Assembly (NCBI GenBank): GCA_002068945.1
Contig: MWBI01000168.1
Span: 1 to 32,344, forward strand
Origin: Candidatus Omnitrophica bacterium ADurb.Bin314
GTDB taxonomy: Bacteria; Omnitrophota; Omnitrophia; Omnitrophales; Aquincolibacteriaceae
Direction of reading: 5' to 3'
DNA: 32,344 nt
Shown piece by piece: positions 4,812 to 29,607 of this stretch. The notes under the pieces were generated by a model that was given only the letters and a program-made list of their open reading frames with translations, was not told where the DNA came from and did no database searches. The position numbers were made by a program, and so were the translations under genes. Position 1 is the stretch's first letter. The number at the start of each line of letters is the position of its first letter.

Positions 4812-4908
4812 ATCCATCCCGCCGATACAACCCCCGTGTCGCATCGGTGAGCCGGGCTATATAACCACACGAGATGTAGGGGGTTTTAAGATGCCAAGGG
4901 AGGTAAGC

Positions 4909-6132
4909 ATGTCGGGATCGGGTGATGTGACAGGAAAGACAAAAAAGAAGGCGGTGGGCGGCCGTTCGCATGCTCTGAAATTGATACCTGACACCGCGCG
5001 GACACTGGCGCTCGCGATGTCACTGATTTTTATCAGTCCCGCCGCGCTCCCGGCCGCACAAGCGCCGGCATCGTCGTCGGCGGTCCCGGAGGTGGCCACC
5101 TACACCGAACTTCTCGCCGCGATCCGGAAGGCCCGGGCGGCCTCAGAGGCGCGGGTTGAGGCCGCGGTCGAACAGGAAAAAGTCCGTGAGGTCTGGGAGA
5201 CGGGCAGGCTGATCGATGAGCATATTCTTCTTCATAAAGAACGCGCGGATTACGGGGAACAGGTCATGGCCCGGCTTGCGGGGGACCTCGAAACGAGCCG
5301 GTCGGAGCTTTACCGGATGCTTGAATTTTACCGCGCTTACCCGATTTTCGCGCATGCGCGAAAATTGAACTGGTCGGATTACCGGGACCTCCTTGGGGTT
5401 AATGACGTCAAAGCGAGGGATGTCCTGGCTGAACGGGCGGAGAACGAGAAATGGACCCGCGAGCGGCTACGGGACGAGATCAGGAAACTGAAGACAGAAA
5501 AAGAGGGAGCCGACCCGGCCCCCCGGCCCGAACGGTCCGACCTCTCGGCCCCGGAGGTCCTTAGAGCCTCGCCCGGCAAGCCCGGAACTTACCGTTATGT
5601 CAAAGCCACCGTCGGCCCTGAAGCGGGACGTAACGTGATTGACCTCGGATTTTCCAACTATTACCGGACGTCCAGGGAACTCAGCTTCCGGGACGGGGCC
5701 CTGATAGAAACGCTCTCTACGTTCAGAGAGGCTTCCTCCCCTTCGGACAAGATCCGTCTTTCGAGGCGCGCGGCGGCGGACCTTTATACCTACCGCGCCT
5801 GGATCGTGAGGGTGCTGGACGGCGACACCGTGAAGGCCGTGATCGATCTTGGTTTTGGCGTTCGCAGCACGCAAGTCCTGCGGCTCCGGGGGATCGACGC
5901 TCCAGAGCTCGTAAGCGCGGACGGGAAGAAAGCGAAAGAATTTTTAGAAAAGAAGCTGGGTCTGGCGGAGGGTGAAGGGCTAAGCGACAGGATGGTTCTG
6001 GTTCGTACCGAAAAATCCGACAAATACGATCGCTACCTTGCCGACCTTTTTTATACGGACAAGAACGGCCGGGAGATCTATCTCAATCAGGAGATTCTGG
6101 CCGCGGGCCTGGCCATCCGGATGGGGGAGTGA
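4909..6132 (+). CDS. Secreted DUF1016_N / staphylococcal-nuclease-like fusion protein
   Basis: The 407-residue product has a long basic n-region and a hydrophobic stretch (about 30-49) ending PAAQA, a likely Sec signal peptide. Residues 62-195 match DUF1016_N (VWETGRLIDEHILLHKERAD, then LNWSDYRDLLGV). Residues about 222-270 form a middle segment I do not recognise. Residues 295-405 are an SNase domain with D304/D306 (LDGDTV), R325 and E333 (RLRGIDAPE) and R375 (DKYDRY), equivalent to the catalytic and calcium-binding residues of staphylococcal nuclease. It should therefore be an active, exported, calcium-dependent nuclease. The start at 4909 is preferred because AAGGGAGG lies five bases upstream. 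DUF1016_N is normally paired with a PDDEXK nuclease domain, so the SNase pairing is unusual. Confidence 0.85.
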   Translation: MSGSGDVTGKTKKKAVGGRSHALKLIPDTARTLALAMSLIFISPAALPAAQAPASSSAVPEVATYTELLAAIRKARAASEARVEAAVEQEKVREVWETGRLIDEHILLHKERADYGEQVMARLAGDLETSRSELYRMLEFYRAYPIFAHARKLNWSDYRDLLGVNDVKARDVLAERAENEKWTRERLRDEIRKLKTEKEGADPAPRPERSDLSAPEVLRASPGKPGTYRYVKATVGPEAGRNVIDLGFSNYYRTSRELSFRDGALIETLSTFREASSPSDKIRLSRRAAADLYTYRAWIVRVLDGDTVKAVIDLGFGVRSTQVLRLRGIDAPELVSADGKKAKEFLEKKLGLAEGEGLSDRMVLVRTEKSDKYDRYLADLFYTDKNGREIYLNQEILAAGLAIRMGE

Positions 6133-6151: not shown

Positions 6152-6170
6152 TCCAACCTCGTAGGTTGGA
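6152..6170 (+). repeat. Short palindrome, copy 1 of a pair flanking the DUF11 gene
   Basis: TCCAACCTCGTAGGTTGGA is an 8-bp perfect inverted repeat with a CGT loop, just after the nuclease stop codon. There is no T-run, so it is not a standard terminator. A similar core (CCAGCCTCGCAGGTTG) lies at 7136-7151 beyond the next gene. Confidence 0.6.
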
Positions 6171-6317: not shown

Positions 6318-7118
6318 ATGAAATTTCCAAGGATCGTCGCAATCTCCACCGTTCTTATTTTCGCCGCGATTGCCGCCGTTTCTTTCACCCCGACGGGATT
6401 TGCGGACTGCGGTGATTGCAGGGAGCAGGGCTCCCCGCTTTACATCGAAAAAAACATGCCGCCGCAGATCGTGATCGGAAAGCCCTACGAATACATAATC
6501 CGCGTCACGAATCGCACTGACCGGCTGGTCAACGATGTTTCGGTGATCGAGACCCTGGCCGAGACGTATGTGATGAGCGCCGCGTTGCCGGAGCCTTCCA
6601 AAGTGGCGGGGCAGACGATCCAGTGGGATTTCGGGACCCTGAAGCCGAAGGAATCCCGGACGCTCACGATCCAGGGGAGCGCGAAATCGACCGGTTCCTT
6701 CAAATCATGCACAAAGGTGATCCACAGCCAGAGCCTTTGCCAGGGCCCTGAGCTGGGCATGCCGGCGATTCTTCTTGAAGTGATCGACACGGAGGACCCC
6801 GTCCAGGTCGGCGGGACGGAGAAGTTCTACGTTACCGTGACCAACCAGGGGAATGCCCCCGACGAGAACATCCTCGTGAAGATGAGTTTCGAGGAGAACT
6901 TCGATTATGTTTCTTCGGGCGGCCCCACGCAGGCAAAGGTGGAAAGTGCCAAATCCGTTGAGTTTGCTCCGCTCGCGTCTCTTGCCCCGGGCCACAAGGC
7001 GACCTGGGAAGTGACGGCGAAGGCCCTCTCGGAAGGCGATCATCGCACCTCGGTCAAGCTGACGAGTGACGCGATCCGGAGGCCGGTGGACGAGACCGAA
7101 TCCACGCACGTTTATTGA
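6318..7118 (+). CDS. Secreted DUF11-type repeat protein (OmcB-like)
   Basis: This 266-residue exported protein has a signal peptide of about 29 residues (hydrophobic core VAISTVLIFAAIAAVSF, likely cleavage after PTGFA). Two beta-sandwich repeats follow. The first is about residues 45-130 (IVIGKPYEYIIRVTNRTDRL, then IQWDFGTLKPKESRTLTI). The second is about 155-255 (VQVGGTEKFYVTVTNQGNAP, then FAPLASLAPGHKATWEVT). This pattern fits the DUF11 family, which includes the chlamydial cysteine-rich outer-membrane protein OmcB. Four cysteines lie in the mature part (C31, C34 and a pair near 135-145). A structural or adhesive envelope role is likely but unproven. AAGGAGG at 6307 fixes the start, and a terminator follows the gene. 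Confidence 0.75.
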   Translation: MKFPRIVAISTVLIFAAIAAVSFTPTGFADCGDCREQGSPLYIEKNMPPQIVIGKPYEYIIRVTNRTDRLVNDVSVIETLAETYVMSAALPEPSKVAGQTIQWDFGTLKPKESRTLTIQGSAKSTGSFKSCTKVIHSQSLCQGPELGMPAILLEVIDTEDPVQVGGTEKFYVTVTNQGNAPDENILVKMSFEENFDYVSSGGPTQAKVESAKSVEFAPLASLAPGHKATWEVTAKALSEGDHRTSVKLTSDAIRRPVDETESTHVY

Positions 7119-7330: not shown

Positions 7331-7882
7331 ATGAGAATACGGTTCCCGTTTTTTTTGATGGTTTCCTTCCTCATGGTCCTCGCCCCGCTGCCCGCGCGCG
7401 CGGCGGAGAGACCCGCCTTGGCCGGGGACTACGCTACGGTCAAGCGGGTCGTGGACGGGGACACGGTCATCCTCACGGACGGACAAAAGGTCCGGCTGAT
7501 CGGAATCGACACGCCGGAATCCCGCCGGAACGGGAAACTTGCCCGCGACATGGAAAAGACCCGTCAGGACGCGGACACGATCATCGCGCTCGGGAAACGC
7601 TCGGCGCAGTTCACGCGGTCGCTGACGGAAGGGAAGCGCGTCCAGCTTGAGTACGACGTCGAAAAACGCGACCGCTACGGCCGCACGCTCGCCTATCTTT
7701 ACACGGAAGACGGGATGTTCGTGAACGCCGAAATCCTGAGAGAAGGTTACGCGATGGTCCTGACCGTCCCGCCGAATGTGAAACACAAGGACCTGTTCGT
7801 GAAGCTTCAGAAAGAAGCACGCGAAGCCAAAAGAGGACTTTGGAGAGAAACGCCGATTTTACAGGCAAAGTCTAGGGGCTGA
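7331..7882 (+). CDS. Secreted thermonuclease (SNase family)
   Basis: This 183-residue protein has a clear Sec signal peptide (hydrophobic core FFLMVSFLMVLAPLPARA, cleavage near residue 24). One SNase domain follows, with D42 and D44 (VDGDTV), R55 and E63 (RLIGIDTPE) and R118 (DRYGRTLAY), which match the calcium and catalytic residues of staphylococcal nuclease. It should cut DNA and RNA outside the cytoplasm. Its SNase domain is related to, but clearly diverged from, the one in the fusion protein at 4909-6132. The gene is monocistronic by position: a terminator lies upstream and a consensus -10 box sits directly before the ATG. Confidence 0.9.
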   Translation: MRIRFPFFLMVSFLMVLAPLPARAAERPALAGDYATVKRVVDGDTVILTDGQKVRLIGIDTPESRRNGKLARDMEKTRQDADTIIALGKRSAQFTRSLTEGKRVQLEYDVEKRDRYGRTLAYLYTEDGMFVNAEILREGYAMVLTVPPNVKHKDLFVKLQKEAREAKRGLWRETPILQAKSRG

Positions 7883-7941: not shown

Positions 7942-9873
7942 ATGCGGATTCGACACCTGAAGACGGGGGACAAGATAACGCTCGACGGGCTGGAGGCGAT
8001 GCTCCAGGAGCTTCGCTATGTCCGTAAGGGCCTCGTGGAGCTTCCGGGTGAGTACGCGATGCGCGGCGGGACGGTCGATATCTATCCCGTGACCTACCGG
8101 ATGCCGGTGCGCCTCGACTTCCGCGGCGATACCCTCCATCAGATCCGCGATTTTTCCCCCTCCGAAGGGAAGAGCTTCACGATGTTCGAAGAGGTCTTCC
8201 TGATCCCGCTCTCCGGCCAATTCGAAAAAAAGGTCCGCCGCCTCGAGGAGCGGCTCGGCGCGTTCGAACCCGTCTCGGAGGCAGGTGAGCTCCAGCGCGG
8301 TGACTTTGTCGTCCACCTGCATTACGGGATCGGACGTTTCCTCGGCACGAAGATGATCCGGATGGACGGCGCGAAAGAACGCTGTTACGCGATCGAATAT
8401 GCGGACGGAGAAATCCTGTACCTTTCCCTGAAGGAACCGCTCGAACGTTATATCGGCGGCTTGTCGGGCTCGCCGAAACTGACGAAACTCAACACAAAGG
8501 AATGGGAGCGGATCAAGGAACGGACGCGGATCGCACTCCACAAGGTGGCCGGCGAGCTTCTCGAGATCCAGGCCCGCCGCAGCGTCCAGCAGGGATTCGC
8601 GTTCCCCTCCGACCGCGACTGGCAGCAGAAGTTCGAGGCCGAGTTCCCGTTCGAGGAGACCGCCGGGCAGAAACGGGCGATCGAGGAAACGAAGCGGGAC
8701 ATGGAGGCGCCGAAGCCGATGGACAGGCTCCTCTGCGGGGATGTCGGCTACGGAAAGACCGAGGTCGCGATGCGCGCGGCGTTCAAGGCTGTGACGGGCG
8801 GCAAGCAGGTTGCGTTCCTCGTGCCGACGACGATCCTCGCCGAACAGCACTACATCCTGATGAAGGATCGCGTGAAAACCTTTCCCGTGACGGTCGAGCT
8901 CCTTTCGAGGTTCCAGACCGCGGCCGGGCAGAAGGCAGTCGTGCGTTCCCTCAAGACGGGAGCGACCGACATCGTGATCGGTACCCACCGGCTCTTGTCG
9001 AAGGATATCGAGTTCCGGGAGCTTGGGCTCGTCGTGATCGACGAGGAACAGCGCTTCGGTGTCCGGCACAAGGAAGCCTTCAAACGGATGCGTTCGCAGG
9101 TGGACGTCCTGACGCTGACTGCGACACCGATCCCGAGGACGCTCCACATGGCCTTGCTCGGTGTCCGTGATATGTCCGTGATCGACACCCCGCCGCGTCA
9201 CCGCATGCCGGTCCGGACATTTGTGATGGAATATCACGAAAATATCGTGAAACAGGCTGTGGAACGTGAGATCGCCAGGAAGGGCCAGGTCTATTTCATC
9301 CACAACCGCGTCGAGAACATCGAAAAGGTCCACCAAAAACTGAAAGAACTCATGCCCGGGGTCCGCTTCGGCGTCGCGCACGGGCAGATGCCGGTCGAGA
9401 TGCTCGAACGGGTCATGATGAGCTTCATAAAAGGGTCGGTCGACTGTTTGATCTCGACCAACATTATTGAGTCCGGGATCGATATCCCGAATGTGAACAC
9501 GCTGATCGTGAACCGCGCCGATTGTTTCGGCCTCGCGGACCTCTACCAGCTTCGCGGCCGTGTCGGCCGTTTCAGGGAGCCGCGCCAGGCCTACGCGTAT
9601 TTCCTGACGCCGAAGAACTGGGTTTTGACGCTTGACGCCGGGAAGCGCCTTGCCGCGATCGAACGGTTTGTGGAGCTCGGCTCAGGGTTCCGGATCGCGA
9701 TGGAAGACCTCGAGATCCGCGGCGCCGGAAATTTGCTGGGGCACGAACAGAGCGGGTTCATTCACGCGGTCGGATTCGACCTCTATTGCAAGATGCTGAA
9801 GAGAGCGGTGGAAGAGCAAAGAACAAGCGCGAGGTCCGGTACGCCGAGCACGGAACAACGATCGCCCGCGTAA
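7942..9873 (+). CDS. mfd: Short Mfd-like (transcription-repair coupling factor) translocase
   Basis: Mfd is the DNA translocase that dislodges stalled RNA polymerase and recruits UvrA. This 643-residue product keeps part of the UvrB-like domain D2 (residues 1-88, with [14 protein letters not shown]). It goes straight into the polymerase-interaction domain (114-172, [18 protein letters not shown]). The SF2/RecG-like motor follows, with Walker [10 protein letters not shown] (266-274), DEEQ (367-370), TATPIPRT and the C-terminal [10 protein letters not shown]-type motif ([15 protein letters not shown]). Compared with E. coli Mfd (about 1150 residues), it lacks D1a, the remainder of D1b-D3, and the autoinhibitory D7, ending in a low-complexity tail. 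An in-frame stop at 7921-7923 rules out a longer N-terminus. SD-like GGAAGGA precedes the ATG. The motor motifs are intact, so it is probably active. Confidence 0.88.
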
Positions 9874-28276: not shown

Positions 28277-28442
28277 AATCATGTTAGGCTTGCCGCATGA
28301 GGAGCAGGCGCACCCCCATACCACACAGGCGGATCTTCCGGACCATTGTTTTCTTTTGCGGACGAAAGATGATGGCTGATACGGTCCGTTGTTCCGCAGA
28401 CCCGGGGAACCTCCGGGAAAGACGACCGGCAGGATATCATCT

Positions 28443-29607
28443 ATGAACTCCATGTCCGACCGGGACCTTGCCTCCATGCTTGTTTTAAATCGCCTTGGGA
28501 TCCGGGAAAGGCGGCGGGCGGTGGAGCTTTTACGCGAAGGACAATATCCCGGCGAGGTCCTCGAAGTCCTGAATGAGGAGGGAACGAAAGAGCCGTTCGA
28601 TCCGTTAAAGGAGCTCGATGAGTGCCGGAGGGAAGGGGTCGCGTTATGCACAGTCCTCGACGCGGAGTACCCGGCCGCGTTGAAGGAGATCCCCGATCCT
28701 CCGCTTCTTTTTTACATGAAAGGGATGCTTGAGACCGGTGATGCCAATGCCGTGGCGGTGGTCGGGACGCGGCATCCGAGTTTTTATGGCAGAACGCAAG
28801 CCAGGCGTTTTTCGGGAGAGCTTGCCGCGAAAGGGATCACGATCATCTCCGGTCTCGCCCGCGGCGTTGACCAGGCGGCGCACGAGGCGGCCCTCGGGAT
28901 TCCCTACGGCAGGACGATCGCGGTGCTTGGATGCGGTATCGATGTTGTCTATCCCAAAGAGAATGAAAAACTGTCCGGGAAGATCACGGAGCGGATATTC
29001 GCTGATCAGCGAATATCCGCTCGGGACCCCGCCGCTTGCTGAAAATTTCCCGAGGCGGAACCGGATCATCTCCGGGCTCAGTCACGGCGTGCTTGTGATC
29101 GAAGCCCATTCGCGGAGCGGTTCGCTGATTACCGCCCACGAGGCGCTCGACCAGGGCAGGGAGGTGTTCGCGCTCCCGGGGCCGGTCGATCAGCTGACGT
29201 CGCGCGGCACCCATCAACTGATCAGGGAGGGAGCGGCCTTGATCGAAAGCCCGGAGGAGATCTTTGAAGCCCTTGCTGACCGCTGGCGGTCCGTTGCTCC
29301 TCCCGAATCTTTCGTGAGCGCCACGGCCGAGGAATCCGCTACCGGTGTACCGATACAACCCGTGCCGGTAAACAAGGAGGAGGAAGCGTCGGTGGTCGTC
29401 AATGAAGAGACACTCCCGGGAGAAGAGAAGGATGAGGAGTCGGCGATCCTGCTCGAAGCCCTGCGTGAGGAGAGCGGCATGACGGTTGATGAGATTCTTG
29501 AAATGACGGGACTGGATGCGGCAAGGGTCGCGACGCTGCTGTTTATGCTGGAGCTTGGGGGGCGGATCCGGAAAACTCCGGACGGCAGGTATTTTATGAC
29601 TAAATGA
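28443..29607 (+). pseudogene. dprA: DNA-processing protein A, interrupted by a +1 frameshift
   Basis: DprA loads RecA on incoming single-stranded DNA during natural transformation. The N-terminal part (frame of 28443) runs through AVVGTRHPSFYGRTQARRFS, ISGLARGVDQAAHEAAL and IAVLGCGIDVVYPKENEKL, then reaches a stop at 29042. The protein continues in the +1 frame from about 29002 with LISEYPLGTPPLAENFPRRN, the family motif HSRSGSLITAHEALDQGREV, ALPGPVDQLTSRGTHQLIRE and a C-terminal winged-helix domain to 29607. The frame change falls inside the palindrome at 28989-29022. All family parts are present in order, so this is a single recent lesion, a programmed shift or a sequence error. The ATG at 28443 has GCAGGA upstream. 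Confidence 0.88.
28989..29022 (+). repeat. 34-bp perfect palindrome at the dprA frameshift
   Basis: GAGCGGATATTCGCTGA (28989-29005) is directly followed by its reverse complement (29006-29022) with no spacer. The right half encodes the conserved ISEYPL region in the downstream frame. The left half has seven bases (28995-29001) between the conserved Glu-Arg codons and the Leu codon where a multiple of three is expected. Confidence 0.9.

Follow-up and report, generated by a model that had tools for sequence, protein, structure and literature searches.

A predicted exported nuclease joining DUF1016_N to a shortened SNase domain in Candidatus Omnitrophota

We found that P0001, a protein encoded in a window of 32,344 nucleotides (the whole stretch of DNA analyzed, contig MWBI01000168.1), belongs to a clade of DUF1016_N-SNase proteins for which export from the cytoplasm is predicted. 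With moderate confidence, we favor the interpretation that P0001 is an exported SNase-type nuclease, probably Ca2+-dependent, with a built-in DNA-binding module, and that its likeliest use is the breakdown of foreign DNA outside the cytoplasm. DUF1016_N is widespread and is used as a marker for candidate phage defense. No established function for this domain was found in the literature searched. The exported clade, which carries a different nuclease and paralogues that vary in the helix-turn-helix (HTH) part, offers a direct test case for DUF1016_N as a DNA-recognition module. Members of this phylum are thought to be predators or parasites, and the clade would be an instance of a candidate immune domain relocated to the envelope.

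An AlphaFold2 model of P0001, built on 51 relatives, contained a disordered N-terminus and a helical DUF1016_N domain, followed by a small beta domain at residues 227-284 and, last, an SNase barrel (mean pLDDT 84; Table 1). The pTM was just 0.56, so the placement of the domains relative to one another is uncertain. The first-pass annotation had located DUF1016_N in residues 62-195 and had made its proposal depend on it; the Pfam match covers residues 73-193 (E 1.6e-17; 64.3 bits versus a gathering cut-off of 32.8). In the model, this domain starts with a long helix (65-108), followed by helices at residues 115-127, 131-143, 155-161, 167-179 and 184-200. Matches to PPR proteins in a PDB sequence search were confined to residues 51-81, and we discarded them as probably compositional.

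Table 1 Features of the P0001 gene and its product, in window coordinates.
Feature	Position	Strand	Residues	Description and basis
ORF encoding P0001	4909-6132	+	407 aa	DUF1016_N-beta-SNase protein with predicted export
Shine-Dalgarno-like sequence	4896..4904	+		AAGGGAGGT, ahead of ATG 4909; read directly from the sequence
Predicted signal peptide	4909..5061	+	1-51	Long basic n-region, then TLALAMSLIFIS as h-region (32-43) and an Ala-rich stretch for cleavage, up to AQA
DUF1016_N domain	5095..5508	+	63-200	Pfam and AlphaFold2, pLDDT mostly >90
HTH/ParB-like part of DUF1016_N	5239..5508	+	111-200	HTH_ParB in relatives, 6sdk, mosaic test
Small beta domain	5569..5784	+	221-292	DLGF motif; AlphaFold2
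C-terminally short SNase domain	5785..6129	+	293-407	Catalytic D304, D306, R325, D330, E333, R375
REP-like palindrome	6153..6169	.		CCAACCTCGTAGGTTGG, 20 bp past the P0001 stop codon

The source metagenome-assembled genome (MAG; 1.41 Mb, 177 contigs, 87% complete) has Candidatus Omnitrophota as its named-record relatives. Homologues of P0001 were present in 32 of the 58 genomes searched (its own and relatives), with several copies in many. We collected 60 homologues from these genomes, 56 of them with the full layout. A signal-like N-terminal stretch was carried by 19 of the 56, or by 21 of 89 with wider sampling, and we refer to these proteins as the exported members. In P0001, residues 32-51 comprise a hydrophobic core and then Ala-rich cleavage sites. 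A simple signal-peptide rule, requiring a hydrophobic core, a basic n-region and small residues at -3 and -1, was passed by 17 of the 19 members of the P0001 clade (P0001 and 16 of the other 18) versus none of the 37 other family members. Cysteine content after residue 61 also separated the groups, being 0.10% of residues in the exported members versus 0.71% in the others (p 9e-7, a value that overstates the independence of the members, given shared ancestry). Cysteine was absent altogether from 15 of the 19 exported members, and both members with two cysteines space them six residues apart, an arrangement that could be compatible with a disulfide.

The n-region of P0001 is unusually long (31 aa), an internal start is compatible with the sequence, and other DUF1016_N proteins are cytoplasmic. 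The hydrophobic stretch might consequently be an uncleaved inner-membrane anchor or reflect a mis-annotated start, with the nuclease acting inside the cell. We find this improbable, as a strong Shine-Dalgarno sequence favors ATG 4909, the signal peptides of close relatives are shorter and canonical, with AxA-type cleavage sites, and cysteine depletion suits an oxidizing compartment. Thus, export of P0001 is predicted, in line with the initial suggestion that DUF1016_N here follows a signal peptide, and the purely cytoplasmic prediction that would have spoken against this suggestion did not arise.

The exported members form one clade in all trees. In the full-length tree, a single branch (98/94) separated the 19 proteins from all others. 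When 33 sequences from Opitutaceae, further Omnitrophota, other phyla and Leptospira were added, the resulting tree of 89 again placed the 21 exported members together (SH-aLRT 94). Single-domain trees repeated the clade, both for DUF1016_N rooted on canonical YhcG (91/94) and for SNase (95). At least 11 genomes, from families f1, f3 and f7, carry the clade, and f8 has a partial copy; the clade has multiplied, to as many as four exported copies in one genome. Besides P0001, its genome encodes one more exported copy (contig 163) and no further DUF1016_N protein. A match to a viral contig (L033) was rejected as a 19-residue chance match within a phage structural protein.

The DUF1016_N-SNase fusion itself occurs in Omnitrophota, Verrucomicrobiota (Opitutaceae) and Leptospira plasmids, mostly without a signal peptide; the initial mention of similar fusions in PVC-type genomes was borne out by the first two groups. 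These cytoplasmic proteins, including one from a Leptospira plasmid (WP_142499955.1), have the domain order of P0001 (DUF1016_N, beta segment, short SNase) but lack the signal peptide and contain more cysteines, and the exported clade nests alongside them. They are already in public records, where the Leptospira protein is annotated merely as 'DUF1016 N-terminal domain-containing protein'. In a survey of these records, which used a 10-member alignment of exported proteins and is biased to close relatives, no clear signal peptides were seen in Opitutaceae or other non-Omnitrophota homologues. Since the exported proteins form one clade and homologues outside Omnitrophota have no clear signal peptides, we suggest that the fusion preceded the gain of export. 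This gain probably occurred once, from cytoplasmic relatives resembling the PADLOC candidate PDC-S02; the clade comes from the trees, and we infer the direction. Consequently, the idea of an SNase swap in the exported protein holds in that the YhcG nuclease has been replaced, but the replacement would predate export and have taken place in a mostly cytoplasmic family. No description of the exported clade or of its mosaic HTH part was found in the literature searched, which included few of the subscription journals.

The nuclease part was identified as SNase by Pfam (PF00565, residues 324-403, E 7e-7; 30 bits versus a cut-off of 21) and by PHROGs (SNase endonuclease, residues 287-404, E 2.8e-28); in Foldseek, S. 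aureus nuclease was a structural match for the C-terminal part (E about 1e-5; target TM about 0.66). PF06250, the C-terminal half of YhcG, had no match in P0001, while the control L091 matched both YhcG halves in Pfam, and the proposed replacement of PDDEXK by SNase was thus confirmed at the level of domain searches. YhcG (COG4804; PF17761 plus YhcG_C PF06250) resembles P0001 in its DUF1016_N domain, its stand-alone gene and its occurrence as several paralogues in certain genomes, Rickettsiae being the reported example (PMC1189080). In contrast, it ends in a PD-(D/E)XK nuclease and has no signal peptide, whereas P0001 has SNase, an intervening beta domain and predicted export. The secreted staphylococcal-type thermonucleases NucI and EcnA, as well as the SNase encoded at 7331-7882 of the window, share a signal peptide and the SNase active site with P0001; unlike P0001, they have a full-length SNase and neither DUF1016_N nor the beta domain. 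P0001 scored far below the cut-offs of the corresponding NCBIfam equivalogs (EcnA, 27.6 bits versus 180; NucI, 24.2 bits versus 250).

The residues D21, R35, D40, E43 and R87 of S. aureus nuclease correspond to D306, R325, D330, E333 and R375 of P0001. Together with the D19 equivalent, these positions are invariant in 19/19 exported members and nearly so in the cytoplasmic ones. The T41 equivalent is Ala in P0001 and usually Ala or Cys across the DUF1016_N-SNase family. The Pfam SNase profile is covered to position 75 of 107 in P0001, and the full-length domain with its C-terminal helix was not found there: the polypeptide ends shortly past the second helix of the fold. Following R87, 16 of the 19 exported members have 26-33 residues, versus 65 in the full-length SNase at 7331-7882. 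The short end is a family feature and not a truncation of the P0001 gene. Thus, all six catalytic positions are present, as originally described, but in a domain that is C-terminally short and has Ala in place of T41. The shortened fold may have weak activity, and with about 35 C-terminal residues of a full SNase missing in nearly all members, one could imagine an inefficient enzyme whose host protein acts chiefly by extracellular DNA binding. We give this little weight because six catalytic positions invariant throughout the exported members are unexpected of a dead enzyme. As a separate observation, one family member (L075:6100-7086) combines DUF1016_N with a degenerate SNase that has lost the catalytic motif.

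The segment between DUF1016_N and SNase had been noted as an unrecognized stretch at about residues 222-270. The segment is present, but larger (about 221-292), and it corresponds to a conserved beta domain of the DUF1016_N-SNase family. Modeled alone, residues 221-292 reached a pLDDT of 88, with AlphaFold2 strands at 227-232, 242-247, 250-252, 265-268 and 282-284. Foldseek returned no structural match for it in the PDB or among viral structures. Profile comparison revealed a partial similarity to strands beta1-beta2 of SNase (probability 71%, 30 columns), which makes an internal repeat of SNase strands 1-2 possible. We rejected a second OB fold, as this similarity is partial and the Foldseek searches were empty. 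The middle segment is absent from two cytoplasmic relatives.

Several comparisons point to DUF1016_N as the part that contacts DNA. Pfam HTH_ParB overlaps the second half of the domain in 22 of 51 members (E up to 0.01) and, when E values up to 1 are admitted, in 8 of 10 exported members. Two cytoplasmic members scored above the cut-off of this profile; P0001 itself did not reach threshold, the match being seen in its relatives. Residues 167-211 of P0001 matched an LmbU-type regulator (E 0.0014), and the DUF1016_N profile found B. subtilis ParB (Spo0J, 6sdk) over the matching region (E 0.018). The counterpart region of YhcG has been described as mainly alpha-helical, with no confident match to a known structure (PMC1189080). 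The likeness to ParB/Spo0J concerns the HTH; P0001 has no ParB CTPase domain, and its remainder is a nuclease. Because the second half resembles the ParB HTH, we suggest that DUF1016_N is probably a DNA-binding domain. Hence, of the two options initially offered for this domain, binding of DNA or of a partner, the former gains support. A stronger constraint on DUF1016_N after export was considered and set aside: the effect was large in all-pairs data and weak with independent pairs (p 0.047).

Next to this similarity stands the pattern of divergence between paralogues. In the exported pair L059/L035 (genome G028), DNA identity was 88-93% over helix 1, the beta domain and SNase, versus 49-69% over the HTH/ParB-like part; at third codon positions, it was 75-85% in the flanks versus 28-55% in that part. 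The exported pair L038/L040 (G007) fell from 95% in helix 1 to 62% in the HTH and returned to 85-91%, while L055/L034 (exported, G024) had 55% identity in the ParB-like part versus 72-81% elsewhere. The least similar 40-codon window was located inside or bordering the HTH/ParB-like part in three exported and two cytoplasmic pairs (p <0.0005 to 0.0025), in a test whose window was picked after the first pair was seen and which covers few recent pairs, the exported ones from three genomes. For the three exported pairs, the observed window was reached by 0 of 2000 permutations, and the cytoplasmic same-genome pairs L086/L085 and L049/L052 also had their worst window there (p <0.0005 and 0.0025). 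The test gave no significance for the G007 pairs L037/L038 and L037/L040. Older pairs were mostly uninformative, with a variable linker dominating, and the divergence between P0001 and its contig 163 paralogue was too high to judge the pattern.

The drop extends to third codon positions in the exported pairs, which is better explained by segmental exchange than by amino-acid selection alone. A near-constant nuclease combined with a diverged DNA-binding part among same-genome paralogues suggests that each copy may recognize different DNA. From sequence, the best reading of P0001 is that of a predicted periplasmic or secreted nuclease with a DNA-binding module varying between copies. A more elaborate scenario, which we consider speculative and rather unlikely, is that these exported nucleases have exchangeable modules: copies sharing a nuclease and recombining HTH segments would constitute a small DNA-specific repertoire outside the cytoplasm, possibly directed against phage or prey DNA crossing the envelope.

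Our model for P0001 has three steps. The signal peptide is predicted to make the protein a Sec substrate, destined for the periplasm or the outside. There, judging by similarity, DUF1016_N would bind DNA with a long helix suited to dimerization and a ParB-like HTH. Finally, the small beta domain would connect this module to the shortened SNase, which, with its intact active site, is predicted to cut the bound DNA.

The role that this activity would serve is the least certain part of our explanation. Omnitrophota have been proposed to be predators or parasites (PMC10066038), and extracytoplasmic breakdown of foreign DNA, whether as food or during attack, would fit such a life. A barrier against incoming DNA would fit the link to PDC-S02, to which the P0001 family is similar over DUF1016_N (best E 7.8e-24). 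A defense enzyme would then have shifted from the cytoplasm to the envelope, where it would destroy entering phage or plasmid DNA. We regard this periplasmic barrier as unlikely. The cytoplasmic sisters match PDC-S02, paralogues differ in their DNA-binding part among cytoplasmic and exported members alike, which would suit an arms race, and ComEC had no match in the 87% complete MAG, so classical DNA uptake for food is not evident. A role of P0001 in competence was set aside on this negative, within the limit given by the completeness of the MAG. However, PDC-S02 is a computational candidate, for which no paper testing it was found in the literature searched; its matches are limited to DUF1016_N, none among the matches listed reaching SNase, and the candidate does not include export. 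In addition, exported copies have no clustered defense genes, and the P0001 gene lies amid ribosomal-protein, metabolic and repair genes. Across the family, no conserved gene neighbors were found, and none decides the role.

The proposed predatory or parasitic life, together with genomes that carry as many as four exported copies, also raises the prospect of an effector secreted to degrade the genome of an attacked prey or host cell. This seems quite unlikely to us: we saw no toxin-delivery domain, lipobox or neighboring immunity gene, and an ordinary Sec signal peptide is the sole targeting feature.

The palindrome downstream of the P0001 gene belongs to a repeated element. Exact cores of CCAACCTCGTAGGTTGG occur 27 times in the genome, versus 0 for a reversed control, and the core sits within a longer imperfect palindrome (ACCNNATCC...GGATNNGGT). 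On contig 163, another copy precedes the exported paralogue by about 110 bp. The palindrome is possibly a terminator, and any link to the P0001 system is putative.

Further features of the window and of the family were observed alongside. The full-length SNase at 7331-7882, with its own signal-like N-terminus, is encoded two genes downstream of P0001, placing two predicted exported nucleases within 3 kb; between them lies an exported-looking DUF11-type protein (6318-7118). The ORF at 7942-9873 is Mfd-like but has only 643 aa; judged by eye from its translation, it seems to be missing two parts of a usual Mfd, the UvrB-like N-terminus and the C-terminal domain. A dprA-like gene at 28389-29607 is split into overlapping frames (28389-29042 and 28729-29607), by a frameshift or an assembly error. 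Elsewhere in the family, ORF6N-like genes (phage antirepressor type, by eye) are found near L049, L052, L061, L081 and L083, mostly cytoplasmic members.
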